Assembly: GCA_032622095.1 (NCBI GenBank) | Contig: CP136061.1 | Location: 35,595,797 to 35,659,796, forward strand | Origin: Siphonodentalium dalli | Lineage: Eukaryota > Mollusca > Scaphopoda > Gadilida > Siphonodentaliidae | Length of the DNA stretch: 64,000 nucleotides | Reading direction: 5' to 3' | Part shown: positions 18,156 through 56,219 of the stretch, in pieces | Layout of the letters: each line of letters begins with the position of its first letter | Numbering within the stretch: the stretch's first letter is position 1 | Notes under the pieces: model-generated | Database searches by the model: none | The model's input: only the letters and a program-made list of their open reading frames with translations | Told to the model about the DNA's origin: nothing | Program-made: the position numbers and the translations under genes

Positions 18156-18236
18156 ATGAGCAAATTAGCGAATACTATTATAGCAGGAGAGGCATCTGAA
18201 ACAGATGATGAGGAAGATAAAACTGAACTTATGCAG
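18156..18236 (+). CDS. BLOC1S3: BLOC1S3 exon 1
   Basis: This exon has 27 codons from the ATG at 18156 to the donor GTACTG. It carries the first acidic motif GEASETDDEED. No in-frame upstream ATG was seen. An AG just before the ATG leaves open whether the 5' UTR is spliced. Confidence 0.85.
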
Positions 18237-21200: not shown

Positions 21201-24200
21201 ACATTCTTCAAGGCATTTGAAGAATTCACGCTATCACTGACGCAATAACAGGAGCGATGTTGACCGCACGCACGCTAATTATGAACTGACAAAAGGCGGC
21301 AAATAAGCTTACCTGTGATTGGCTAAGACACATTAGTGTCCGACAGTTAGATCTCAGATTGGGCGCTAACATAGACAGAGTAGACTCAGTGGACAAGGAA
21401 TTGGGCCAAGTTAAGAATATGAAATAGCAAAATGCAGAACAGGAATGCAACTGGGAAGGGAAGTGTATAGAACGGAATAGCGCGGAATGGAATGAACCAA
21501 GTACGCGGAATGAAATGATAATGCAGCTATAAAATGTATATTAGTGAGTTAGGTATAATAACTTAGTTAGTATACATGTGTAGCATGTAATAAAGGCATA
21601 TACTGTTTTGGTATATAAAATAGCACGGTCACACTTATATGAGTCATTCTTCACATACATGTAGTACATTATTTTCCTGTCAATTTAGAGTCGGTAATGT
21701 TCAACCCGTCATGTGACTTCAACATGTCATGTGAAGTCGGTAGCCGAGAGGTAGCATATGGTACTGGTCACTCGTACGTGCTAATTACGCACCAGGATTT
21801 GAAACCTGGTCAGAGTTTTCTGGCAAAGTTTTCTTGTCACAAATTGCTGGGGGATCGGCATTTAATGAGTTAATGGGCTTCAGCTCAATTCAGTTATATG
21901 GCAATTAATCCAATTGCACTGAAGCGGAACTCAATAGAGCTTCAGGTCAATTCCATTGTATCAAAGCGCAATTTATTGTGAGGAAGTCAATTGCTCTTCA
22001 GTGCAATTTAATTACCGTACACTGATTCAAGCTCAATTATTATTTCTAGCTCGCACCCCTGCGAGATCACTACTTAAAGCTCAGTGGATCGAGCCTTTTG
22101 GATAGTAAGACCAAAAATTAAGGCTGTAAGCAGTAGGCCCATTCGGGAGTAAATTATTTTGGAACAACATAAACAATTTTAATGATTTAACCTCTTATTT
22201 AGCCTGAGCCAACTGAAAATATGGTACATATCAAATGAAGGTTATGAATTCTTATATCATCATATAACGTGGACACAGACTTTATCATTGATACATTAAC
22301 CTTGAAAGATTTAAAAACTTTGATAGATAAGTTTTTCCACAATAAGCATTATGATTTTAATGATGCTAGTATCATAGTATGCCATAACTATATCCGCGTA
22401 ACACCGAATGACTCTTTTTTGTGACAATACTCTTGAGTGCCTAATAAACATACATGTACGATTATTAAAATCGAGGTAAAATTTCCACCTGTATGATCGT
22501 TATTTGGCCCTGTATGTTTATTAAATTAACCAAAAGAAATAATTCACCAATCTTAAATTGTGTTTAATATTCATAAAGAAATTAACTCTGATTGTTGACA
22601 AACAGTTATCAGCACATTGCAGATTCACAGACCTGGCTATCCATCAAAACTATTTCTGTCACATGGCATCAGTAAACCAGTCAGATGGTGCATTTTGTGG
22701 GGATGTATGGTACTAATATTTCCAGTCTGTACGTTTATTCCGCCCTGTACTATTATTCAGTTATGCGACATTTTCCAACCTGTACTATTATTCTACCCTG
22801 TACTTTTTTTAGGCACTCAAGAGTATGTATTACCATGTTTTTCATTAGTACTGGAATGAAAAGTCTAGAGACATCTTCCATGATGATGAATTAATGTTTA
22901 TTTTACGTCAGTGAAGATATTTTGAATTGGACTACTGTGAAAATCGGAGAAACTTTTCACCAGTCTCATGACATGAAGGACCGATAATGAGTTGACAACA
23001 CACAATCGGCCCTGCACGTCACTTGACATGCTTGTCGAAGTCAAATTAATTACATGTTGAGCATTACTGTCTCTTAATGCCCTGTAAAACTTTGATAATG
23101 TGCAGAGAACGTCCCACAATAGAGTCTCTGATTGTCATGATAGTCTTGTTCAAAATACATTCGCTGGCAAAAATAAACATCAATTCAGTATTAAATATTT
23201 GTCTGTTCCAGGAAAGTTTGCTTGTCAGGCACTTTGGTGTATAATAAAATATGCTTTTGTAGTGAGTGTCCTTTCACAACGAGAGCTCTATAAAATGTCC
23301 AGGGCTCCTTTTTGACTCGATCCCACTGGTGCTTGATAAGAAATAAGGGAGTAGAATTTTTGTTATGACCCCATAATTAAATCACACAAACACAACTTAA
23401 ACCTTCTTTTATATCAAAAATGAACTGTATGCATGCTTGTGAATGAACAGAAGCTGTGGCAAACATAAAATTGATAGATACACAAGTTTTAAATTTATCT
23501 CTGCAATATATCAATTTCATACATTTCACAATTTCATGAAGCGTTGTCTGTAAGTCAGTCATGGTCAATGGTAGAGAAGTCAGTCTAAATGAGATACAAT
23601 CCCGCAAAGAACTTTAAAATGCAGATGCTTTTCTTCAAAGTTCAAAGGGTGTCCCAATGGAGAATCATTTTCCAAGAATCATCTTATCATAATCTATGTC
23701 TGGCACATTATCTCAGGATTAGGCTTATTTATTTATTTAAATATTTTCAGGAGAAAGGCAACTCAGATCAGTTCCATTTCAAAGGAGAAGCTTCTGAATC
23801 AGACGAAGAGGTCAACACAATAAATCAGCAGGACACCAAACATGAAGTCAAACAGATGTCAACAGATGTCGATACAACCATTAAAGCAAGCGAAAATTTA
23901 ACTCCTTTGAAAGGTTAGCTCTTGGAAAGTTTTATCAAAAGCAATTGACGGAGACACACTTTTTCCTTTGATAAAAATATCTCAATATAGTATTGCTTTT
24001 AACTCTTTCATGACTGGAGCTGCGCTGGTGCAGTATTACATATCCTGTGCCCGTGCATTCTCTTTTATATGCGAGTCTCCCATATATAAGAGAAATCACC
24101 GGCTTACAAGGTCTAGGGAAATATTGTTAGGCCAATGTATTCTCTTATATATGCGAGGCTCCCAGTGGGAGACTCGCATATATAAGAGAATGCTATGGCA

Positions 24201-27200
24201 CAGGGTTTTTACAAAATTTCAGTAAGCTCCAGTCATGAAAGGGTAAACAGACCATGTTTGGAAAGCTAGCCAATTCCACCACAACTATTTGTTTTCAAGA
24301 TCAATTTCAGCATAAAAATGTAAGAATTGTAAAAATATTTCTTCCTCAAATTCATTCATATATCTCTCTTGAACCTTGGTCTCAATTCCAAATCGATTTA
24401 CCCGTTTTTGTGTGAGGTTAACCCTTTACCCAACAGAACGGCCCTGTGCCAATGCATTCTCTTATATATGTGAGTCGACCATAGGTCGCCTCGCATATAT
24501 AAGAGAATGCATTGGCTTAACACATTAAAAATTATAAAATTGTTAAAGAATGTAAGAAAAAATGGTAAAAAGTTATTTTTTTTAGGCCAATGCATTCTCT
24601 TATATATGCGAGGCGACCTATGGTCGACTCGCATATATAAGAGAATGCATTGGCACAGGGCTTAACTGTAACCATCACAATGTGGTCAATGAGCCGGTTC
24701 CAATGATATCCATATTTGTATGGTTTTATTGAGACAGACCCAAGATAATTTAGGCTGTTGCAGCTTTATTTGGCCGGTTTGTTGGGTAAAGGGTTAATCA
24801 CTATGAAAATGAATCTGATGAGCCGCCATCTCAGACAGACTATAACAAGTGCACAGCACAGAGTAACCCCTGCAAAGGGACATCATTGTGCAAATGTCAG
24901 ACAGACTCTATCCAAGCTTGTAGACATATGGACTGAACACATTTCTATTCTAATTAGGATTGGCTGTTATGCTGTAGGACAGCAAATCATCAAATGCACA
25001 CAGTAAGGCTTCTTGTCTACATTATTATCAAATGGATGGGTGCGTTTATTAATCAACTGATTCTGATAAGAATTTTCGCCAACTGTAGTCAAGCCTTGAA
25101 ATAGGGTGTCTGTCATTTGCAGAATGAGGTTCCCAGAGGGTGAATTTGGTGATGCTAGCCCGCTATGACTGTAGTGAAATGTTATCTGCCTGTAGTCAAC
25201 TAAGGCCACATATAGTGTGTAGATATTATATTTATTATACTAATTATAGCCTACATAACTTCTGTTATGATTTGAAAATTAAATTTTGACAAAAAAATGC
25301 ATACTTTACCAAGATATAAATACATTTTTATGGGCAAATGCTGCGTAATAATTGTTAGAAATTGTTTAATTTTGCTGAGCAGAAGCAGCAGGAGACATTC
25401 AGCCCTTTGAACCACTATATAGTCTGTATTAAAGACTTGGCATCTCGAATGTTTTTCATTTACTTACGAGCGAGTCTTGAAATAGTGTGTCTGTCATTTG
25501 CAGAATGAGGTCGCCAGAGGGTGAATTTAGTGACGCTACCCTGCACAGTAGGCTAGCCTCACTAAATTCACCCTCTGGGAACCTCATTTTGCTTGGGCCT
25601 CATTCTGGGAAGTATCTATAGTCCAAAATTAACATTGTTTTTAGTTGCTTTTCCCTTTTGTTCAGTTGCAGAAGACAAAATGCATAATCAAGGTGACTTT
25701 TATTATAAACGGGTGAACATCACCAATGTCAACTGGGGAACTTCAATCTGATCCTAGGTCTCCAATAGCATTTGAGGCCTCAGCAGAATGAGGTTCCCAG
25801 ATGTTGTGGAGTACAGCATCACTAAATTCACCCTCTGGGGAGTGGGGACCTCTGCAAATGACAGACACACTATTTCAAGGTTTGCCCTGATCAATTGGGC
25901 AAGCATAAAACATATACTTCATAAAACATTGGGCTCCGTTCAGTGAAACAAACCTATTTTGTTAGGCCTTAATATTTAGGCCTCATCACTAATTTCACCC
26001 TCTGGGGACCTCATTATGCAAATGACAGATACACTATTTCAAGGCTTAGTTATGAGGGATCTGTGGTTTGAACACTGATTTCTACATGTAGCGACATGGT
26101 TTCATAATTAAAGGAACTCTCTATGTGGTCTTTATTTCACCACAGGCACTATATACCATATTCTAAATAATGTTTGTAAACCCATTCATAACTTTTGTTT
26201 CAGTATCAGAGTTTTATGTTAGTTTATTCACATACAGTATTAATTTCTAGTGGACAAGATGGAACCAGGTGATGATAGCGTTATTAGTGAGAATTCCTCA
26301 GTCCAGACAGATGTAGCTGCCAGCATACAGCCGACTAAACCTGTATATAACTCGTAAGTTTGTTCAAATTCCAACATGAATTAGATGACAGTTTGCTGCC
26401 AATATTGATACCCATATTTTAGATCAAGAATTTGAAAACTAGACTTTCCATAGCAAGCATGTCAATACAAAAATGGTAGCAAATGTAATATGGAAGAATT
26501 AAATGAATGTGCTACAATAAACATACAGGTGACATTTTGATGAATAAAATACAGTGTGATCAGAACATTTTCCCATTTATCAAACAGGGTATTCTGACAC
26601 TGGATGAAATATTTTATACAATACATGTACCGCTATCCTGAAAGTAATTGAATTGAAAAATGTGGTGATACCCGGGCAATGAGATGCAGTATTACCGGTA
26701 GTATACAGTATCCACATCGGTATCGAGACGATCACTGCAGTGGAGTTATGGTACCATCTGCTTATGATTCCACAGGCTATTAGTGGGTCGTCATACCAAA
26801 AGTTGAAGAAAATAATACATCCATGAGGATCTTGTTAAGTTCCGCAGATAAGGAGAATCACTGCATTTTATTTTTATGCCTGCGAACCGTGACCACATGA
26901 ATCGTGGTGTATCCGTTGTGTGTGTCGTGTTGGAGCAGCAGTAACCTTACCATGGTATAATACTGCAGTATTACCAGGGTGGCACCACGTTAGATGTGGT
27001 CAACTACTTTAAGTATATAGCTGTATGTCATCTGAGGTTTAATAGGCACCCAATTATTTTCCATCCTAAAGTCAGATCTGTCATACCACAGACTTCAAAA
27101 TGATATATAGAAACCCATTCTGTGCAGTATGTGCATTAAATAAAAAAAATATGAGGCCCCTGCCACTCTCCGAAGAGTTATTTCCAGAAATATATGGATG

Positions 27201-30200
27201 AGACTTTGAAAGTAAAACATTCTAACCCTCAATTTCTTCATAGATATCAAGTTATGTTAATCTTAATCTAATTTCATTTCTATTTGGTGTTATGGTTTGT
27301 AGTTTTATACAGTTTACTCCAAAATAATTTGATGGAATATCTTCCCTTGAGGTACAACAATCTTAAACAAACATGGCTCCTTCGAATCCGAATACAGGTA
27401 TTTTTTTTTTCTTTTCACTAAATTTGAGATTGTTTTGTTTGTGCCCGTTAAACTATTTTCGTCAGCGGTTGCGTGAAATTGCAACTGTAGACCATGAGTC
27501 TAGAGCTAGAGTCTAGAGTCTAAATCTAGAGCTGTCTTCGCTCTAAAACATTTATGGTACAAAATGAGTTTGATGATTAAAACGAACAGAAAGCAGTGTG
27601 TGAAGTTTTATAATAGTTTCATGTTAACCCTTTGAGTGCCAGGTCGATTTTTGTATCAACCCATATACCCTGTGCCAATGCATTCTCTTATATATTCGAG
27701 TCGACCATAGGTCGCCTCGCATAAATAAGAGAATGCATTGGCCTAACAATTTTTTTTTACAATTTTAAAAATTTATTCTTATATTCTTTAACAGACTTAG
27801 TTTGCAGGTTTAGGGCCGATGAGATCGGCCCCTGGCACTCAAAGGGTTAAATGTAATTCAAAGTTGTATTTCTTATGACTTCAATGTGTCTTTTTTCGGA
27901 CATATAATGTTCATAGAAAGGTAGATCAGGTATTTATCAACCAGATTCAACCTATTTCGATACCAGGAACAATTCAAAAGGGAATACTATTAGATGTATC
28001 TTGGAGCGCAAACCGCCATGTGGCTTTAAGTCTGAATATAATAGACTCAGGCTTATTTATTCCCAGGTTATATTCTTGCCGTATGGATGCATCTATAGTT
28101 CCTTGCATGAAACCACCAACCATAATCAAATCACACTATTTTGTGATGTTCAGTATTTCTATCCCATGTACTGGTATACAAGTTTTCTTATTTGGTAATG
28201 ATTATAAATGTATAGTTGAATCTAAAATATCTGCCTTCCAGGTTGCTGCACAGAAAACTTTGTGAGTATATTTTCCTTTAACTATTTCCTTTATTTCCCA
28301 TCAACAATATGAGGCGTGATTCTTCAGTCTGAGTGAACCTCATACTATTGGACATCTACATGTTCGATAGTCTGAAAGAGTTATTCATGGTGACCCATTC
28401 AACACCGAAATCTTGAGTGGTGAAGATTAGCGAGCGCTATATTGGTATGTTGTATACAATATGGTGACAATTTTAATGAAAGTTTACCTAGTAGGGTCTC
28501 CCCGGTTTTTGGTGTATTGCATATTGCACACTCTTTACATACTATAATGTATCATAACATGGCTTTTGTTTACTAACAAGGCATATGATATAAGGATTAA
28601 CTGTCATGTGGACTGTTTTTATGGAGATGTAACCGTGAGGTAAGTGGTCATAACTTGTGTAAAACCCGAAGGGTTTTACATACAAGTTATGACCACTTAC
28701 CTCACGGTTACATCTCCATAAAAACAGTCCACATGACAGTTAATCCTTATATTTATATACATTTAGCGAAAAAGCCACTTTTTTTGTAAATGTATTTAAA
28801 TCGAAAAGTGTATCGTGACAAAACAAGCCCAAAATATCCCATAGCACCATTGGCAAAAGTTAACAGGAACAATTTCTCTTTATATTGAAACCCGATGATG
28901 TATTAAGTCAATCCTGTGCGAGTCCAAATGCGCCCAAAACATTACGCATTCTTCTTTCTGAAACTGATGACGTGTCGATGTAATTATGAGGCTGCAGTTA
29001 TGAGCTGTTGCGCATTCACCGACAAATAATTGCAACTAGCCACGTGGGCGCCGACCAATCGGAATGCTGGATTTAGTGATGATCACACTTAGTATGTAAA
29101 TATATTGCAATAACATTCTATTTACAAGAACAAAATCTGTCTATATTTTAATATTCTTTCTGTTTATGGCAGTTTTAATGGAGGTGATTATTTTAACAGC
29201 AATACCCATCGCGAAGGCATTTAATCTGCATAAGCCTTACCTTTCTTTTGTCTATGAGACATATTGTCATATTCCAGTGTGGTATGATGTTGCTATTTTC
29301 TTTCCAGATGAGAGAAATATGTTATTTAGGAAGCACATTGTTGATACCACGAGTCAGGCTTATTTGGGTCCTGCTAAAGATATGCATAATATCGCTGTTC
29401 AGCTTACCAAGACCCAGTCTGTGATACAGGTTTGTACTTTATATGTTACATCCTGTGGTTTTATGTGAACCCAGTCTGTAATACAGGTCTGTACTTTATA
29501 TGTTACATCATGTGGTTTTATGTGAACCCAGTCTGTGATACAGGTCTGTACTTTATATGTCATATCATGTGGTTTTATGTGAACCCAGTCTGTGATACAG
29601 GTTTGTACTTTATATGTCATATCATGTGGTTTTATGTGAACCCAGTCTGTGATACAGGTCTGTACTTTATATGTCATATCATGTGGTTTTATGTGAACCC
29701 AGTCTGTGATACAGGTTTGTACTTTATATGTTATATCCTGTGGTTTTATGTGAACCCAGTCTGTGATACAGGTCTGTACTTTATATGTCATATCATGTGG
29801 TTTTATGTGAACCCAGTCTGTGATACAGGTTTGTACTTTATATGTTACATCCTGTGGTGTTATGTGAACCCAGTCTGTGTTACAGGTCTGTACTTTATAT
29901 GTCATATCCTGTGGTTTTATGTGAACCCAGTCTGTGATACAGGTTTGTACTTTACATGTCATATCATGTGGTTTTATGTGAACCCAGTCTGTGATACAGG
30001 TCTGTACTTTATATGTCATATCCTGTGGTTTTATGTGAACCCAGTCTGTGATACAGGTTTGTACTTTATATGTCATATCATGTGGTTTTATGTGAACCCA
30101 GTTTGTGTCTTTGTGATACAGGTCTGTACTTTATATGTCATATCATGTGGTTTTATGTGAACCCAGTCTGTGATACAGGTTTGTACTTTATATGTCATAT

Positions 30201-33200
30201 CATGTGGTTTTATGTGAACCCAGTCTGTGATACAGGTTTGTACTTTATATGTTACATCCTGTGGTTTTATGTGAACCCAGTCTGTGATACTGGTTTGTAC
30301 TTTCTATGTTACATCATGTGGTTTTATGTGAACCCAGTCTGTGATACAGGTTTGTACTTTATATGTTACATCCTGTGGTTTTATGTGAACCCAGTCTGTG
30401 ATACAGGTATGTACTTTATATGTCATATCCTGTGGTTTTATCTGAACCCAGTCTGTGATACAGGTTTGTACTTTATATGTCATATCCTGTGGTTTTATGT
30501 GAACCCAGTCTGTAATACAGGTCTGTACTTTATATGTTACATCCTGTGGTTTTATGTGAACCCAGTCTGTAATACAGGTCTGTACTTTATATGTTACATC
30601 CTGTGGTTTTATGTGAACCCAGTCTGTGATACAGGTTTGTACTTTATATGTCATATCCTGTGGTTTTATGTGAACCCAGTCTGTGATACAGGTCTGTACT
30701 TTATATGTGAACCCAGTCTGTGATACAGGTTTGTATTTTATATGTTACATCCTGTGGTTTTATGTGAACCCAGTCTGTGATACTGGTTTGTACTTTATGT
30801 GTCATATCCTGTGGTTTTATGTGAACCCAGTCTGTGATACAGGTTTGTACTTTATGTGTCATATCCTGTGGTTTTATGTGAACCCAGTCTGTAATACAGG
30901 TCTGTACTTTATATGTTACATCCTGTGGTTTTATGTGAACCCAGTCTGTGATACAGGTTTGTACTTTATATGTTACATCCTGTGGTTTTATGTGAACCCA
31001 GTCTGTGATACAGGTTTGTACTTTACATGTCATATCCTGTGGTTTTATGTGAACCCAGTCTGTGATACAGGTTTGTACTTTATATGTCATATCCTGTGGT
31101 TTTATGTGAACCCAGTCTGTGATACAGGTTTGTACTTTATGTGTCATATCCTGTGGTTTTATGTGAACCCAGTCTGTGATACAGGTTTGTACTTTATATG
31201 TCATATCATGTGGTTTTATGTGAACCAAGTCTGTGATACAGGTTTGTACTTTATGTGTCATATCATGTGGTTTTATGTGAACCCAGTCTGTGATACAGGT
31301 TTGTACTTTATATGTCATATCCTGTGGTTTTATGTGAACCCAGTCTGTGATACAGGTTTGTACTTTACATATCATATCCTGTGGTTTTATGTGAACCCAG
31401 TCTGTGATACAGGTCTGTACTTTATAGAGGATATCTACACTTTTTGGTTGGATGTGGGAATTATCTCATGAGTGATGACAAAATAAATGAATTTCCACGA
31501 GCCACGAGTGGAAATTAATTTGTTTGTCATAACGAATGAGATAATTACCATGTCCAACCAAAAAGTGAAGATGTTCTGTTTATTATATGCTCCGCTCAGT
31601 TGGACCATGACTCAATTCGAAAAAAGATAAAAGAGAGCAAATTTGTATACCCAAGCACAACCATGGTAATGAGCATGTGCATATTAAAATAGTTCCATTT
31701 ATCAGACAGATTGGTTGAGCGTTAAAGGGGTTAACATCATAGTATGTTTAACACAATAATTTAATTGATCATATATCACAATTTTTTCAAACTGAACACT
31801 CAGGGACTTTTTGCTTAGTCTTCCATCAAGAAACCTAATCACTTTTAATTTTAGTGCGGATGGATACGAGTGAGATATCGATATCTCACTAGACGGATAA
31901 CGGTTTGTATCTGATGCAAAAATACTATTATTTGATAGCTTAGAATATAATAAATATTTTTGTCATATCCTGTGGTTTGATGTGAAGCATTCCATGCCTA
32001 ATTTGATCACTGAAAACTATCATGGTTTGAGTGCATGTACTGTATCTGTCAAAACTATCATGGTTTGAGTGCATGTACTGTATCTGTCAAAACTATCATG
32101 GTTTGAGTGCATGTACTGTATCTGTCAAAACTATCATGGTTTGAGTGCATGTACTGTATCTGTCAAAACTATCATGGTTTGAGTGCATGTACTGTATCTG
32201 TCAAAACTATCATGGTTTGAGTGCATGTACTGTATCTGTCAAAACTATCATGGTTTGAGTGCATGTACTGTATCTGTCAAAACTATCATGGTTTGAGTGC
32301 ATGTACTGTATCTGTCAAAACTATCATGGTTTGAGTGCATGTACTGTATCTGTCAAAACTATCATGGTTTGAGTGCATGTACTGTATCTCACTGAAAACT
32401 ATCATGGTTTGAGTGCATGTACTGTATCTGTCAAAACTATCATGGTTTGAGTGCATGTACTGTATCTCACTGAAAACTATCATGGTTTGAGTGCATGTAC
32501 TGTATCTCACTGAAAACTATCATGGTTTGAGTGCATGTACTGTATCTGTCAAAACTATCATGGTTTGAGTGCATGTACTGTATCTCACTGAAAACTATCA
32601 TGGTTTGAGTGCATGTACTGTATCTCACTGAAAACTATCATGGTTTGAGTGCATGTACTGTATCTCACTGAAAACTATCATGGTTTGAGTGCATCACTGT
32701 GCATGTACTGTATCTGTCAAAACCAGGGACCAGCCTAGAGGACCACGTGGGAGATATCTTCTCCCTGAAATGTGCAAGCCTTGAAATAGTGTGTCTGTCA
32801 TTTGCAGAATGAGGTCCCCAAATTCACCCTCTGGGAACCTCATTCTGCTGAGTTGTAAGCAGAATGAGGTCCCCAGAGGGTGAATTTGGCTCTGGGACTG
32901 TTATCAGGGAGAAGTCATGTTAGCTGAAGTTCAACTTACTACCTTCGATGATCCAATAAATATATATTGGATACAAGAGCCCATTTATAAAACCATTATA
33001 ATGAGTAAGCACACCATTAAAATCAGGAAATGTATACTGAATATTCTGTTTGGTCATGTGCGTACTGGTATATGCGAGAAAAGTATTTCTCCCTAGGACA
33101 AAAATAGGGAGAAGTGACACATTTCCAAGCCTTGAAATAGTGTGTCTGTCATTTGCAGAATGAGGTTCCCATAGGGTGAATTTGGGGACCTCATTCTGCA

Positions 33201-34883
33201 AATGACGACACACTATTTCAAGGCTTGGAAATGTGTCACTTCTCCCTATTTTTGTCCTAGGGAGAAATACTTTTCTCGCATATACCAGTACGCACATGAC
33301 CAAACAGAATATTCAGTATACATTTCCTGATTTTAATGGTGTGCTTACTCATTATAATGGTTTTATAAATGGGCTCTTGTATCCAATATATATTTATTGG
33401 ATCATCGAAGGTAGTAAGTTGAACTTCAGCTAACATGACTTCTCCCTGATAACAGTACATGTCGCCTTAATATTAAAATATGGAGAAGTTACTTTCAATT
33501 TGAAACCTCTAGGCTGGTCAGTTGCTTACCAAGGGGTCAGTGATTTCTACATGCTATGGTGTGATTTCCTTGTGAAATTAGCCCTCTACACGGTCTTTGC
33601 TCCACCCATAAATTCCATTGTGGTATTGCCATCATGAGGGCATCTTAAGAAGTTTCAAATGGTATTGCTTGTATTTTTATTATACAGTATTCTCCTTTGT
33701 TCAGGTATATCTATAAATGTAAAAATTTTTGTCCTGCAGGGGCTTGGTTTGAAACAGTCTTATTAGAACTAGACCTAATTTTAATTATTTTCAACTTACG
33801 GTCTTGAGACACTCATGGAATAAATTATTTCAAATGGGAGAAATCCAACCAGTGGGCATCAAAGTGTGCGTTGCTCGACCAATCAAAGCTTCCTGTAAAA
33901 CCAATAATTATTAATATTCTGCACTCAGTAATAGTTATTCATACAAGCCCCGCCAAATATTTCTAAAAATAAGTATTAACAAAGGCAAAAATGATGAATG
34001 AAAGTGCTGATTTTGGTGAAATCCAAATTCTCAAAATTGCAATTAAGAATGTATTGCAAAATTAGGCATTGATTCGCTGAAACAAGAGCTGGAGCATATT
34101 ATACGGAATTTATTTATAACCAGAACAGAAGGATGCAGCAATTCATTTCAGACCGAACTGGCTTTGTTATTCACACAAGTAGGAATTGTTGCAGGTCAAT
34201 CAAAACAGTAAACCGTACTCTCGAGTGTTAATGCACCATCACTGACCTTTGACCAACTGCATACATTCCAGTGTTTATGTGCTTTATTTGGAAACATGAA
34301 TATTAAAGAGCTGTCACGAGCGGGGAATTGTCTAAATAAGGAGATGACGCAACAATACAAAGAACAGATAACTTGTTATACTATTTCCTTCTTGTTTATT
34401 ATTCTTTTTGTCTCTACCTCGCAACTGCCTTTTGAAGTTAAGGCTAAATTGTGTATTGCAGTTTGCTCCCATTTTCTTCGACACAACCGACTTGATGGAG
34501 GTTAAAGCGAATTGTCATTGTTATCAACAGATGTGAGCATTCTCAAAATCAATTGTACCAGAGTCTCAAAATCAATTGTACCAGAGTCTCAAAATCAATT
34601 GTACCAGAGTCTCAAAATCAATTGTACCAGAGTCTCAAAATCAATTGTACCAGAGTCTCAAAATCAATTGTACCAGAGTCTTCAGACCCAGTGTTGATTG
34701 TAATCAAATCTTCGTCTAGTTGCAACAAGACTACGAAAATGACTATTTGTTTTTTTATTTATTTTGCAGGATGTTAGCTATAACATGAGGCTGCTGACCA
34801 ACGACTTGTTTCATCTTGAGGACAAAATTGACATTGTGTCATCATGTAATATTCTACCAAAAATCACTTTTCCAAACAAGTGA
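18156..34883 (+). CDS. BLOC1S3: BLOC-1 subunit 3, complete five-exon gene
   Basis: BLOC1S3 is a small helical subunit of BLOC-1, the cytosolic complex that sorts cargo to lysosome-related organelles. Exons are 18156-18236, 23751-23913, 26251-26353, 29330-29429 and 34770-34883, joining in phases 0, 1, 2 and 0 with GT/AG throughout and giving 186 residues (human about 200). Two acidic motifs, IIAGEASETDDEE (residues 8-20) and FKGEASESDEE (37-47), correspond to the duplicated GEATETDSE and GEAAETDSE motifs of the human protein. The C-terminus, MRLLTNDLFHLEDKIDIV then CNILP, matches the conserved end with LDIV..C..LPDI. Residues 117-175 are predicted helical. The last intron contains a tandem array made from the exon-4 end and its donor. 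AATAAA at 34952 may end the transcript. Confidence 0.9.
18318..18452. repeat. Short tandem repeat, unit about 16 bp
   Basis: AAGGTCCCAGTTAGCC is repeated about seven times with small changes, in BLOC1S3 intron 1 just after exon 1. Confidence 0.85.
18468..18851 (+). pseudogene. C-terminal fragment of a LINE reverse-transcriptase ORF
   Basis: An open frame of 127 codons ends in TGA. It reads LHTRLRLNCSHLSGDLT, then SPFCLCGEFETTYHYLFECT and YQEPRRELYDSL. The pattern R.....L.......SP.C.CG..E...H....C..Y...R is the C-terminal zinc-finger-like end of ORF2 proteins of Jockey/I/CR1-type non-LTR retrotransposons. The polymerase domain is absent because the insertion is 5' truncated. It lies in BLOC1S3 intron 1, sense to the gene. 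Confidence 0.7.
18468..19495 (+). mobile_element. 5'-truncated non-LTR retrotransposon with 3' UTR
   Basis: The ORF2 end is followed by about 640 bp of UTR that includes a stem ('accccctccctca' region at 19310 and 'gaggaagggg' at 19327) and ends near an AATAAAAATATG signal at 19470, followed by a short AATC-type tail. 5' truncation is usual for LINEs. Confidence 0.6.
19500..21725. other. BLOC1S3 intron 1, no gene recognised
   Basis: Open frames here are short and lack recognisable motifs. The stretch 20190-20390 ('gtgcgcacgttaaagatccc', 'gtcctgtaaaagccagcc') looks like a dispersed repeat of the kind seen in many invertebrate genomes. This is recollection and not a search result. Confidence 0.4.
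20138..20168. repeat. ATCT microsatellite
   Basis: Five ATCT units follow an A-rich stretch. With the AT-rich sequence before it, this could be the tail of a second retrotransposon, but no ORF supports that. Confidence 0.7.
21726..21850 (+). repeat. Possible tRNA-derived SINE head
   Basis: TAGCCGAGAGG fits the A-box consensus of RNA polymerase III, and GGATTTGAAACC about 50 bases later is a worn B-box. No tRNA fold with a credible anticodon can be drawn, so this is a SINE candidate. Confidence 0.4.
22422..22836. mobile_element. Possible short DNA element with inverted ends
   Basis: ACTCTTGAGTGCCTAA at 22429-22444 is inverted as TTAGGCACTCAAGAGT at 22810-22825. The interior has repeated 'cctgtactattattc' segments. 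Single copy in the window. Confidence 0.45.
23751..23913 (+). CDS. BLOC1S3: BLOC1S3 exon 2
   Basis: The acceptor ATATTTTCAG is followed by 54 codons and one base, ending at the donor GTTAGC. It contains the second acidic motif GEASESDEE and is otherwise a low-complexity polar linker. Confidence 0.85.
24003..24243 (+). mobile_element. T3-family TTAA element
   Basis: Starts CTCTTTCATGACTGGAGC after TTAA and ends GCTCCAGTCATGAAAGGG. Two hairpin modules (CGAGTCTCCCATATATAAG, and CGAGGCTCCCAGTGGGAGACTCG in outline) lie within. It lies 90 bp past BLOC1S3 exon 2. Confidence 0.75.
24422..24793 (+). mobile_element. T1-family TTAA element, copy 2
   Basis: Perfect TTAA on both sides. Both palindromic modules are intact. 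The 3' segment reads CCCAAGATAATTTAGG, a subtype shared with the copies at 35868 and 44250. It lies in BLOC1S3 intron 2. Confidence 0.88.
25091..25170. mobile_element. P-family fragment
   Basis: CAAGCCTTGAAATAGGGTG through GCTAGCCCGCTATGAC. Only the left terminus and half a hairpin remain; the break after CCGCTATGAC is identical to that of the 43.9-kb copy. Confidence 0.75.
25472..25885. mobile_element. P-family foldback element, full-length form
   Basis: Left terminus GAGTCTTGAAATAGTGTG, first hairpin, linker with TTTAGTTGCTTTTCCC, shortened second hairpin, right terminus CACACTATTTCAAGG. BLOC1S3 intron 2. Confidence 0.78.
25978..26048. mobile_element. P-family right-end fragment
   Basis: ATCACTAATTTCACCCTCTG through CACTATTTCAAGGCTTA. 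A half hairpin with its terminus. Confidence 0.7.
26251..26353 (+). CDS. BLOC1S3: BLOC1S3 exon 3
   Basis: The acceptor AATTTCTAG is followed by two bases that complete valine. The exon encodes MEPGDDSVISENSS and TKPVYNS and ends at a perfect GTAAGT donor in phase 2. Confidence 0.83.
26629..27027. mobile_element. Non-autonomous element with TACCGCTAT ends, copy 1
   Basis: Left ACCGCTATCCTGAAAGTAAT and right TACTTTAAGTATATAGCTGT are inverted. The body shares 'gtggtgatacc', 'tatcgagacg' and 'gtggagtta' with 61807-62153. It lies in BLOC1S3 intron 3. Confidence 0.6.
27400..28045. repeat. Dispersed repeat R, copy A, split by a T2 element
   Basis: 'aaatttgagattgttttgtttgtg', 'tgtagaccatgag', 'attaaaacgaacag' and, past the T2 insertion, 'ttatgacttcaatgtgtc', 'gatcaggtatttatcaacc' and 'atgtggctttaag' recur at 35.8-37.3 kb and 49.4-49.9 kb. 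A small TCTAGAG-rich cluster at 27497-27532 is specific to this copy. Confidence 0.65.
27628..27846 (+). mobile_element. T2-family TTAA element
   Basis: Perfect TTAA flanks. Ends CCCTTTGAGTGCCAGG and CCTGGCACTCAAAGGG. It holds one palindromic module of the T1 kind and GGGCCGATGAGATCGGCCCC. It interrupts repeat R copy A in a 'catgttaa' context that is uninterrupted in copy C (about 49615). Confidence 0.85.
28587..28752. mobile_element. Near-perfect hairpin element
   Basis: Arms of about 80 bp with almost no mismatches (TATAAGGATTAACTGTCATG inverted as CATGACAGTTAATCCTTATA) meet at CCCGAAGGG. The high arm identity suggests a recent origin. BLOC1S3 intron 3. Confidence 0.85.
29120..29230. repeat. 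Dispersed repeat next to BLOC1S3 exon 4
   Basis: 'acattttaatattctttctgtttgtggc' type sequence here recurs at 51300-51400, including the 'cagcatacccaccgcc' part. This shows that the open frame preceding exon 4 is repeat sequence, not coding. Confidence 0.6.
29330..29429 (+). CDS. BLOC1S3: BLOC1S3 exon 4, whose 3' end seeds a minisatellite
   Basis: This exon has one base completing serine, then 33 codons, reading HIVDTTSQAYLGPAKDMHN and ending TQSVIQ. The acceptor GTTATTTAG is the only upstream AG that keeps the phase: the stronger-looking CTTTCCAG at 29307 would give TCA TGA. The donor is CAG|GTTTGT. The last 18 or so exonic bases and the first 38 intronic bases form the unit of the tandem array that follows. 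Confidence 0.82.
29406..31430. repeat. Minisatellite, 57-bp unit, about 35 copies, containing the exon-4 5' splice site
   Basis: The unit reads CCCAGTCTGTGATACAG then GTTTGTACTTTATATG, a C/T-variable middle (TCATATCCTGTGG or TTACATCATGTGG) and TTTTATGTGAA. The first unit straddles the exon 4/intron 4 junction of BLOC1S3, so about 18 bases of coding sequence and the donor are repeated in every unit. Units differ at a few positions; one has a 9-bp insertion (near 30108) and one is shortened (near 30705). Because 57 is divisible by three, several frames stay open for hundreds of codons on both strands; these are not genes. Confidence 0.95.
31430..31576. mobile_element. Hairpin element abutting the 57-bp array
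   Basis: Inverted arms (CTACACTTTTTGGTTGGA / TCCAACCAAAAAGTGAAG) meet at CCACGAGCCACGAGTGG. It begins within a few bases of the last array unit. Confidence 0.75.
32010..32722. repeat. Minisatellite, 38- and 40-bp units, 18 copies
   Basis: The core AAAACTATCATGGTTTGAGT then GCATGTACTGTATCT is followed by either GTC (38 bp) or CACTG (40 bp). Ten 38-bp spacings come first, then the two forms mix. BLOC1S3 intron 4. Confidence 0.95.
32723..33522. mobile_element. Compound palindromic element with P elements inside
   Basis: The outer ends GACCAGCCTAGAGG and CCTCTAGGCTGGTC are inverted. Inside, arms 32897-33127 and 33229-33456 are essentially identical inverted copies, about 228 bp each. A P element (33126-33228) sits exactly at the symmetry centre, and another P copy (32774-32893) lies near the left end. 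A relative without the palindrome is at 57713-58240. Confidence 0.8.
33126..33228. mobile_element. P-family element at the centre of a palindrome
   Basis: CCAAGCCTTGAAATAGTGTG through CACTATTTCAAGGCTTGG, with a shortened single hairpin. Its flanks (GTGACACATTT / AAATGTGTCAC) are themselves inverted. Confidence 0.8.
34541..34681. repeat. Minisatellite, 23-bp unit, six copies
   Basis: TCTCAAAATCAATTGTACC plus AGAG repeats six times almost without change, about 90 bp before the acceptor of BLOC1S3 exon 5. Confidence 0.93.
34770..34883 (+). CDS. BLOC1S3: BLOC1S3 exon 5 (terminal)
   Basis: The acceptor TATTTTGCAG opens a 37-codon reading frame ending in TGA. It holds the most conserved part of the family, NDLFHLEDKIDIV and CNILPKI. 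The phase matches exon 4 exactly. Confidence 0.9.
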   Translation, partial: DVSYNMRLLTNDLFHLEDKIDIVSSCNILPKITFPNK

Positions 34884-35472: not shown

Positions 35473-35867
35473 TTGCAGATTAACAACAGGCATGCACAAA
35501 AATACTATTGTTTTACCACTGTGGGGGTAAAAATGCCATGAGGTGGCAGTGTCGGGCACAGATTCATAGAATTTATTTGTTGTTTTTTTTTGTGTATCAT
35601 TGCAGAGTATTCAGATCATTCAAAAAAATCATATTTAATTAACCTGCTTCAGAAATGTCATATCTGGTTTCGGATATTAAATGTATATGGCTCTTTCAAA
35701 CTCAAAAACTATGTATAATTTTATAAGAGGTACATGTATCTCAAAACATACATACATGGGAAGATTTCCGAAAAATCTGGCAATATAGCGCTGAAAATAT
35801 GTAATTTGTTTCTTATAATTATCCATAAATTTGAGATCGTTTTGTTTGTGTTGTTCAAATTTGTTAA

Positions 35868-36264
35868 CCCTTTACCCAACAGAAGGGCCCTGTGCCAATG
35901 CATTCTCTTATATATGCGAGTCGACCATAGGTCGCCTCGCATATATAAGAGAATGCATTGGGTTAACACATTAAAAATTATAAAATTGTTAAAGAATGTA
36001 AGAAAAAATGGTAAAAAGTGTTAAAAAAAGATTTTTTTTAGGCCAATGCATTCTCTTATATATGCGAGGCGACCTATGGTCGACTCGCATATATAAGAGA
36101 ATGCATTGGCACAGGGTATGGTATAACTGTAACCACCACAATGTGGTCAATGAGCCGGTTCCAATGATATCCATATTTGTATGGTTTTATTGAGACAGAC
36201 CCAAGATAATTTAGGCTGTTGCAGCTTTATTTGGCCGTTTTTGGCCGGTTTGTTGGGTAAAGGG
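35868..36264 (+). mobile_element. T1-family TTAA element, copy 3
   Basis: Perfect TTAA flanks and two intact palindromic modules; the CCCAAGATAATTTAGG subtype. It splits repeat R copy B where copy C reads straight through. Confidence 0.9.
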
Positions 36265-53202: not shown

Positions 53203-56200
53203 AGTACAATTCCACATAAAGTATATCCCTGGTAGGAGTCCACATAATGATAAAGTATATCCCTGGTAGCATTCCACATAATGATAAAGTATATCCCTGG
53301 TACCATTCCACATAATGATAAAGTATATCCCTGGTAGGAGTCCACATAATGATAAAGTATATCCCTGGTAGAAGTCCACATAATGATAAAGTATATCCCT
53401 GGTAGGAGTCCACATAATGATAAAGTATATCCCTAGTACCATTCCACATAATGATAAAGTATATCCCTGGTACCATTCCACATAATGATAAAGTATATCC
53501 CTGGTAGGAGTCCACATAATGATAAAGTGTATCCCTGGTAGGAGTCCACATAATGATAAAGTATATCCCTGGTAGGAGTCCACATAATGATAAAGTATGT
53601 CCCTAGTACCATTCCACAAAATGATAAAGTATATCCCTAGTACCATTCCACATAATGATAAAGTGTATCCCTGGTAGGAGTCCACATAATGATAAAGTAT
53701 ATCCCTGGTACCATTCCACATAATGATAAAGTATATCCCTGGTACCATTCCACATAATGATAAAGTATATCACTGGTAGGAGTCCACATAATGATAAAGT
53801 ATATCCCTGGTACCATTCCACATAATAATAAAGTATATCCCTGGTAGGAGTCCACATAATGATAAAGTATATCCCTGGTACCATTCCACATAATGATAAA
53901 GTATATCCCTGGTACCATTCCACATAATAATAAAGTATATCCCTGGTAGGAGTCCACATAATGATAAAGTATATCCCTAGTACCATTCCACATAATGATA
54001 AAGTATATCCCTGGTAGGAGTCCACATAATGATAAAGTATATCCCTGGTACCATTCCACATAATGATAAAGTATATCCCTAGTAGGAGTCCACATAATGA
54101 TAAAGTATATCCCTGGTAGGAGTCCACATAATGTAAAGTATATCCCTAGTACCATTCCACATAATGATAAAGTATATCCCTGGTAGGAGTCCACATAATG
54201 ATAAAGTATATCACTGGTAGGAGTCCACATAATGATAAAGTATATCCCTGGTAGGAGTCCACATAATGATAAAGTATATCCCTGGTACCATTCCACATAA
54301 TGATAAAGTATATCCCTGGTACCATTCCACATAATGATAAAGTATATCCCTGGTACCATTCCACATAATGATAAAGTATATCCCTGGTACCATTCCACAT
54401 AATGATAAAGTATATCCCTGGTACCATTCCACATAATGATAAAGTATATCCCTAGTACCATTCCACATAATAATAAAGTATATCCCTGGTACCATTCCAC
54501 ATAATAATAAAGTATATCCCTGGTACCATTCCACATAATGATAAAGTATATCCCTGGTACCATTCCACATAATGATAAAGTATATCCCTGGTACCATTCC
54601 ACATAATAATAAAGTATATCACTGGTAGGAGTCCACATAATAATAAAGTATATCCCTGGTAGGAGTCCACATAATGATAAAGTATATCCCTGGTACCATT
54701 CCACATAATGATAAAGTATATCCCTGGTACCATTCCACATAATGATAAAGTATATCCCTGGTACCATTCCACATAATGATAAAGTATATCCCTAGTACCA
54801 TTCCACATAATAATAAAGTATATCCCTGGTACCATTCCACATAATAATAAAGTATATCCCTGGTACCATTCCACATAATGATAAAGTATATCCCTGGTAC
54901 CATTCCACATAATAATAAAGTATATCCCTGGTAGGAGTCCACATAATGATAAAGTATATCCCTGGTACCATTCCACATAATAATAAAGTATATCCCTGGT
55001 AGGAGTCCACATAATGATAAATTATATCCCTAGTACCATTCCACATAATGATAAAGTATATCCCTGGTAGGAGTCCACATAATGATAAAGTATATCCCTG
55101 GTACCATTCCACATAATGATAAAGTATATCCCTAGTAGGAGTCCACATAATGATAAAGTATATCCCTGGTAGGAGTCCACATAATGATAAAGTATATCCC
55201 TGGTAGGAGTCCACATAATGTAAAGTATATCCCTAGTACCATTCCACATAATGATAAAGTATATCCCTGGTAGGAGTCCACATAATGATAAAGTATATCA
55301 CTGGTAGGAGTCCACATAATGATAAAGTATATCCCTGGTAGGAGTCCACATAATGATAAAGTATATCCCTGGTACCATTCCACATAATGATAAAGTATAT
55401 CACTGGTAGGAGTCCACATAATGATAAAGTATATCCCTGGTAGGAGTCCACATAATGATAAAGTATATCCCTGGTACCATTCCACATAATGATAAAGTAT
55501 ATCCCTGGTACCATTCCACATAATGATAAAGTATATCCCTAGTAGGAGTCCACATAATGATAAAGTATATCCCTGGTAGGAGTCCACATAATGATAAAGT
55601 ATATCCCTGGTAGGAGTCCACATAATGTAAAGTATATCCCTAGTACCATTCCACATAATGATAAAGTATATCCCTGGTAGGAGTCCACATAATGATAAAG
55701 TATATCACTGGTAGGAGTCCACATAATGATAAAGTATATCCCTGGTAGGAGTCCACATAATGATAAGTATATCCCTGGTACCATTCCACATAATGATAAA
55801 GTATATCCCTGGTAGGAGTCCACATAATGATAAAGTATATCCCTGGTACCATTCCACATAATGATAAAGTATATCCCTGGTACCATTCCACATAATGATA
55901 AAGTATATCCCTGGTAGGAGTCCACATAATGATAAAGTGTATCCCTAGTACCATTCCACATAATGATAAAGTATATCCCTAGTAGGAGTCCACATAATGA
56001 TAAAGTATATCCCTGGTAGGAGTCCACATAATGATAAAGTATATCCCTGGTAGGAGTCCACATAATGATAAAGTATATCCCTGGTAGGAGTCCACATAAT
56101 GATAAAGTGTATCCCTAGTACCATTCCACATAATGATAAAGTATATCCCTAGTAGGAGTCCACATAATGATAAAGTATATCCCTGGTAGGAGTCCACATA

Positions 56201-56219
56201 ATGATAAAGTGTATCCCTG
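53203..56219. repeat. 3-kb minisatellite, 34-bp unit, about 88 copies, two unit types
   Basis: Every unit has CACATAATGATAAAGTATAT then CCCTGGTA, followed by either GGAGTC or CCATTC. The two types alternate in blocks that are themselves duplicated. An unusual shortened unit (CACATAATGTAAAGTATATC) occurs three times (about 54125, 55212, 55620) with the same neighbours. The long minus-strand frames made of GIYFIIMW and RDILYHYV blocks are products of the repeat. Confidence 0.96.

Follow-up and report, generated by a model that had tools for sequence, protein, structure and literature searches.

Which donor does a cell use when an intron opens with dozens of near-identical 5' splice sites, and what decides the choice? 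The question is raised by BLOC1S3 of the scaphopod mollusc Siphonodentalium dalli, a gene on the forward strand of contig CP136061.1 (assembly GCA_032622095.1), within the stretch of 64,000 nucleotides analysed here (positions 35,595,797 to 35,659,796; called the window, whose first letter is position 1 in what follows). A 57-bp minisatellite begins 18 bp before the end of the BLOC1S3 coding exon 29308-29429 and spans its donor. It is probable that the array arose by tandem duplication in place, that the first donor is used by virtue of its position, and that the other 35 are tolerated decoys or weak enhancers acting through U1. How one 5' splice site is singled out from close copies has long been asked, commonly by means of constructs with few sites. 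Here 36 near-identical, almost evenly spaced donors before one acceptor make a natural experiment; the gene is conserved, only one copy of it was found in the genome, and the productive choice can be recognised by the full-length protein.

The gene model comprises four coding exons (18156-18236, 23751-23913, 29308-29429 and 34770-34883), all of which are open, have GT/AG borders and are compatible in phase:

18156-18236, forward strand: BLOC1S3 exon with the start codon, MSKLANTIIAGEASETDDEEDKTELMQ, its ATG directly after an acceptor-like ATACAG; supported by the full-length Pfam match.
23751-23913, forward strand: next BLOC1S3 coding exon, with the second GEASE(S/T)D motif and the donor AAG|GTTAGC; supported by the Pfam match.
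29308-29429, forward strand: repeat-bearing BLOC1S3 exon (exon 4 of a preliminary description of this DNA), 122 nt, ending with CAG in phase 0; unit 1 begins with its final 18 nt.
29430-29435, forward strand: first, presumed native donor GTTTGT, after CAG.
34770-34883, forward strand: last BLOC1S3 coding exon, DVSYNMRLL...PNK, with the stop TGA at 34881-34883; behind the pyrimidine-rich acceptor TTTATTTATTTTGCAG.

The joined product of 159 residues matches the family profile PF15753 over positions 1-171 of 172 with 76.3 bits (E = 3.9e-21) against a cut-off of 27 bits, which places it in the BLOC1S3 family. The exon end at 29429 is supported because joining to 34770 lifts the profile score: the open frame 29100-29468, which holds the repeat-bearing exon, scores 17.1 bits, below the cut-off, and 59.6 bits are reached when the exon is joined to the sequence from 34770 onward. 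Joining from the first donor gives the full match, and the first donor is therefore the one that yields the conserved protein. Read-through into the intron gives TQSVIQ, then VCTLYVTSCGFM and a stop, and this form scores 38.7 bits without the profile positions past 139. The gene identity and exon end proposed in the preliminary description are borne out by these scores, and so is the loss of the conserved C-terminal part upon use of a later donor; the in-frame TGA after CGFM in the first unit is confirmed as well. Since the start codon directly follows an acceptor-like site, a 5' untranslated exon upstream of 18156 is likely and, if present, would fit the numbering of the repeat-bearing exon as the fourth.

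The genome search found no second copy of BLOC1S3, its two matches being the two exons of the gene at this locus, and no spliced retrocopy that could prove the junction. A genome-wide search with the PF15753 profile returned 0 matches, but the controls also returned 0, and hence the search is uninformative. Among solved structures the two-exon peptide had no match.

Tandem Repeats Finder reported two abutting 57-bp arrays (29412-30708, score 2193, and 30704-31426, score 1299), which segmentation resolved into 36 units at 29412-31426. The last unit is interrupted by a mobile element and has its remainder at 31961-31986:

29412-31426, forward strand: 57-bp minisatellite: units 1-35, then the first 32 bp of unit 36; a donor-like site in every unit (Tandem Repeats Finder, segmentation).
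31427-31960, forward strand: dispersed mobile element, about 530 bp long and foldback (palindromic) in its 5' part, inside unit 36; borders good to a few bases (genome matches).
31961-31986, forward strand: 3' remainder of unit 36, beyond which other intron sequence begins; marks the intron side of the repeated segment (local alignment).

According to the segmentation, 33 units are 57 bp long, unit 13 has 65 bp, unit 23 has 37 bp and unit 36 has 32 bp before 31427; the unit count and the array length are those of one assembly. A unit consists of 18 exonic and 39 intronic bases, and its opening 18 bp, ACCCAGTCTGTGATACAG, are the final 18 bp of the exon. The mean pairwise identity is 94.7% over 34 ungapped rows (unit 13 taken without its insertion, units 23 and 36 excluded), and 16 of the 57 columns are variable. 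At the donor position GT is present in 36/36 units and CAG|GTnTGTA in 34/36: 21 units have CAG|GTTTGTA, 12 have CAG|GTCTGTA and unit 18 has CAG|GTATGTA, the remaining two (units 16 and 25) having CTG|GTTTGTA. One phase is shared by 25 of the 36 donors and shifted in 11 (units 13-23), owing to the 8 extra bp in unit 13 and the 20 bp missing from unit 23. The shift has no effect on the protein, since the stop in unit 1 comes earlier.

As had been described, then, an array copying an exon end and its 5' splice site does lie within BLOC1S3, in the place given for it (Tandem Repeats Finder, segmentation and Pfam), and nearly every unit does keep the donor CAG|GT.TGTA. Other particulars needed adjustment. 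The figure of about 35 units was right in scale, the exact count being 36; the 18 exonic bases stand, with 39 rather than 38 intronic ones; the common phase does not extend to units 13-23.

A dimeric or other higher-order structure, plausible by eye in the first third of the array, found no support when the unit order was shuffled: at lags 1-12 the similarity of neighbours was not above that in shuffled orders, the closest being lag 1 (297/2000 shuffles). The repeat unit is stop-free in one frame per strand, which leads to long open frames at 29390-31471, of up to 265 amino acids on the forward strand and 254 on the reverse strand. They are taken as chance, because 57 is a multiple of three (19 codons) and a stop-free unit stays stop-free.

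Both edges of the array could be read. On the left, the array borders on other exon sequence and, on the right, past the mobile element, on other intron sequence. Unit 36 resumes at 31961-31986 exactly at the broken base, with one mismatch, and then gives way to other sequence; this remainder has a local score of 47, while none of 50 single-base shuffles exceeded 28. The recovered right edge is the strongest new result of the present analysis. Elsewhere in the 2.23-Gb assembly the repeat was not found, the 16 matches listed all lying inside the array, though a miss is no proof of absence. A dispersed satellite or an element-borne repeat was rejected as the source, a single place having been found among the matches listed. 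The array was born in place by tandem duplication of the exon-intron junction, and the element later jumped into the last unit. This follows from the continuity of unit 1 with the exon on the left and of unit 36 with the intron on the right, and from the fact that no second gene copy and no other location of the repeat were found.

Parts of the mobile element match many places in the genome (1639 and 1118 first-look candidates, 40 being scored in each). In an alignment with eight other copies the likeness begins with TATAGAG in six and with CATAGAG in a seventh, while in the eighth it starts a few bases further on; the right border lies near 31954-31958, where most matches end. The insertion into unit 36 left no evident target duplication.

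These observations bear on the suspicion that the array is an artefact of assembly, or that it grew freely in a dead gene. Repeats are prone to misassembly, and the length of the array is known from the assembly alone. Against this, the four exons are open, in phase and bounded by GT/AG, and they encode a full-length protein; no second copy was found, and the array forms a single coherent locus, its unit 36 holding a mobile element. We regard this explanation as barely credible. The array also shows that amplification of a splice junction to about 2 kb can leave the exons of its gene intact.

How the first donor prevails is a separate matter. All donors were scored with a splice-site model, as the preliminary description had proposed for the units, and the scoring gave the first donor no advantage. 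On a generic matrix, it scores 5.80 bits, against 6.63 for the C-type (12 donors), 10.07 for unit 18 and 3.89 for the CTG-type; the donor of unit 18 (CAG|GTATGT, GT at 30407) has the top score of the intron on this matrix. The pairing of 9-mers with U1, computed for the four donor types, is -7.2 kcal/mol for the first donor, -6.6 for the C-type, -8.0 for unit 18 and -4.2 for the CTG-type. Three of the 42 listed U1 matches were read, and all have the standard 5' end ATACTTACCTG. Seventeen of these 42 lie at about 103.84-103.88 Mb of contig C1, mostly about 2,150 bp apart, and form a tandem U1 gene cluster.

Local sequence cannot explain the choice of the first donor. This donor is special by position: it ends a 122-nt exon and adjoins real exonic sequence and the upstream acceptor. 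A 57-bp segment (18 bp of exon end and 39 bp of intron start) was tandemly duplicated in place, and it grew to 36 units through what was presumably ordinary minisatellite turnover. The donor being part of the duplicated segment, 36 donor-like sites now stand at the head of the intron. The conserved protein would be produced only when the most upstream donor joins the acceptor at 34770. The first site may win by exon definition, through the upstream acceptor, the exon's own sequence and its normal size of 122 nt, and also by 5'-first commitment of U1 sites, as reported for human F7 intron 7. Some U1 bound at downstream units may help the weak first donor, as in PAH exon 11. A degree of leakage to sites 2-4 is probable; the products would be truncated and in most cases would carry a trigger for nonsense-mediated decay (NMD).

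The consequences of such leakage can be predicted from the positions of stop and junction. Whichever of the 35 later donors is used, the exon takes in the stop of unit 1, which lies 18 nt ahead of the exon junction for unit 2 and at least 75 nt ahead of it for the other 34. By the usual rule, NMD is triggered by a stop 50-55 nt or more ahead of a junction. A trigger is accordingly predicted for 34/35 later donors, since 75 nt or more is past that distance.

Several points weigh against a privileged first site. Later donors score equal to or above it, and 20 other units share its CAG|GTTTGTA. Among the 524 GT sites at 29308-34740, 45 score at least as high as the first donor, itself included, and 11 of them are outside the array. 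No RNA structure favouring the first donor was seen: its predicted accessibility ranks 17 of 36, and structure was rejected as a cause of the choice. Donors 2-4 would yield exons of 179, 236 and 293 nt, which are normal sizes, so that exon definition alone need not exclude them; the use of donor 36 would give an exon of 2105 nt. There are also descriptions of the reverse preference, in which binding of several U1 favours the intron-proximal site. The earlier statement that splicing must choose the first donor nevertheless appears sound. Given the reading frame and the Pfam match, we infer that the first donor alone is normally used and that the later ones would be cryptic, as in F7.

The F7 repeat, of which there are five to eight copies, provides the closest precedent. 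The available part of one report describes 37-bp repeats of the same anatomy at the start of human F7 intron 7, with only the most upstream donor in use, and credits this to an oriented scanning mechanism; a mutation at +5 of the first donor led to exon skipping and activated downstream cryptic donors (PMC6627357). The repeat is polymorphic in number, and seven or more repeats are mentioned in the accessible text of another paper (PMC4183524). As in F7, unit 1 of the BLOC1S3 array spans a coding exon end and the native donor (18 exonic and 39 intronic bases, with the border supported by Pfam), and the later units carry highly similar donors (GT in 36/36, CAG|GTnTGTA in 34/36). Unlike the vertebrate case with its 37-bp unit, the array lies in another gene, has a 57-bp unit and far more copies; moreover, the unit length is divisible by three, and unit 1 contains an in-frame stop. 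If the analogy holds, the F7 precedent predicts first-site-only use in BLOC1S3. The principle is already known, and BLOC1S3 adds to the F7 type an unusually large new case in a different gene and animal. In the literature, no paper combining BLOC1S3 and a minisatellite was found, and we make no wider claim; a search for further precedents found nothing on point, and we do not call the array the largest known.

A survey of human genes within segmental duplications described internal tandem repeats at the borders of exons and introns and reported 27 intron modifications (PMC2812944). To judge from the available part of that paper, BLOC1S3 resembles these cases in having a repeat at an exon-intron border, where such repeats can alter splicing. 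It differs in that those are recent duplicates with novel introns within repeat-bearing exons, whereas BLOC1S3 was found once and its repeat is mostly intronic.

The preliminary description had also suggested that the choice among donors is noisy and tunes the amount of protein. In such a scheme the copy number would set the productive fraction of BLOC1S3 mRNA, decoy donors and NMD together acting as a rheostat. The expected NMD trigger at 34 of the 35 later donors is in keeping with this, as is the similar donor strength of neighbouring units. However, no sign of selection on the donors was seen, the donor columns being no better conserved than the rest of the unit. The nine donor columns carry 15 of the 69 minority letters, and 45 of the 57 nine-column stretches (taken circularly, the donor's own included) hold as few or fewer than the donor does. 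Of all columns of the unit, the one that varies most, with 13/36 units deviating from the majority, is position +3 of the donor itself. Selective maintenance of the donors, tested by these counts, was not seen, as expected if the copies do not matter; it seems that the donors have been retained through the youth of the array and its homogenisation. C-type donors are commoner near the exon (7/12 in units 2-13 vs 5/23 in units 14-36), but Fisher's test gives p = 0.059 and the units are not independent. A rheostat is in our opinion unlikely, and the claim of tuning finds no support in the minority-letter counts. A stricter version, distinctly unlikely, would have 36 near-equivalent donors compete for one acceptor, so that the share of the first donor falls as the array grows and the rest is lost to NMD. 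If a rheostat were real, the dose of a protein of lysosome-related organelles would vary heritably with copy number in the species. The regulatory reading of the array is without support so far.

The array might instead be a landing platform for U1, guarding against premature cleavage and polyadenylation within the 5.3-kb intron (telescripting) or enhancing the first donor. All 36 donor-like sites pair with U1, the four types computed ranging from -4.2 to -8.0 kcal/mol. An AATAAA at 31482, brought into the intron by the mobile element, sits 70 nt past the donor of the last unit, and seven further AATAAA or ATTAAA hexamers follow later in the intron. According to the available text on PAH exon 11, U1 bound downstream of the natural donor can enhance its use and exon definition (PMC5933811). 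BLOC1S3 likewise has extra potential U1 binding downstream of its natural donor; in PAH, as far as that text goes, it is a single intronic region tested by mutation, unlike the BLOC1S3 sites, which are known from sequence. Yet one or a few U1 sites would suffice, poly(A) hexamers would be expected by chance in an intron rich in A+T, and the donors bear no sign of selection. A platform function is quite improbable.

The units could also be ratchet points, with the intron removed between AG|GT sites in 57-nt steps (recursive splicing), or the intron could be growing by AGGT tandem duplication. In the model of intron gain by tandem duplication, the duplicated segment contains AG|GT. The BLOC1S3 segment does so too: CAG|GT is present in 34/36 units, and splicing from a unit's GT to a unit's AG would restore the same exon end. 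Intron gain via tandem genomic duplication is described in the accessible part of PMC4974935; unlike there, no evidence was found of BLOC1S3 units being spliced from one another. A good polypyrimidine tract before AG|GT, as in a recursive splice site, was not found by a crude measure applied to unit 2: pyrimidines make up 47% before ACAG and 53% before CCCAG, against 65%, 82% and 82% at the acceptors 23751, 29308 and 34770. This argument is weakened by the acceptor-like site ahead of the start codon, which likewise has only 53% pyrimidines. In addition, 57 nt is short for an intron. We hold both a ratchet and such intron growth to be very improbable and return to duplication in place with use of the first donor.

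Would such an array be expected by chance? The genome was sampled in 12 stretches of 9 kb at round coordinates, arrays being counted with a period of at least 15 and at least 5 copies. Nine arrays were found in 7/12 stretches (one or two in each) and none in five, together 3.2% of the sampled bases, against an array share of 12.4% in the window (7963 of 64000). Minisatellites are frequent in this genome, and it would be no surprise if, rarely, one of them lay across a donor. Assuming 150,000 introns and 9 arrays per 108 kb, a rough estimate suggests that hundreds of donor-crossing arrays would be expected without selection, and one survivor would be unsurprising.

Two further minisatellites, both unrelated to the 57-bp unit, lie in the same intron:

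32013-32694, forward strand: 38-bp minisatellite, 17.6 copies, found only here in the genome search.
34541-34681, forward strand: 23-bp exact repeat, 6.1 copies (Tandem Repeats Finder).

The 23-bp repeat ends 88 bases ahead of the last BLOC1S3 coding exon. Its copies are 100% identical, which suggests a recent expansion. The longest array of the window is a 34-bp minisatellite at 53216-56219, with 88.5 copies over 3 kb. At 24398-24665 and 35721-36193, open frames on both strands give nearly the same words (QCILLYMR..., RIYKRMHW), and these two places probably belong to another dispersed foldback element.

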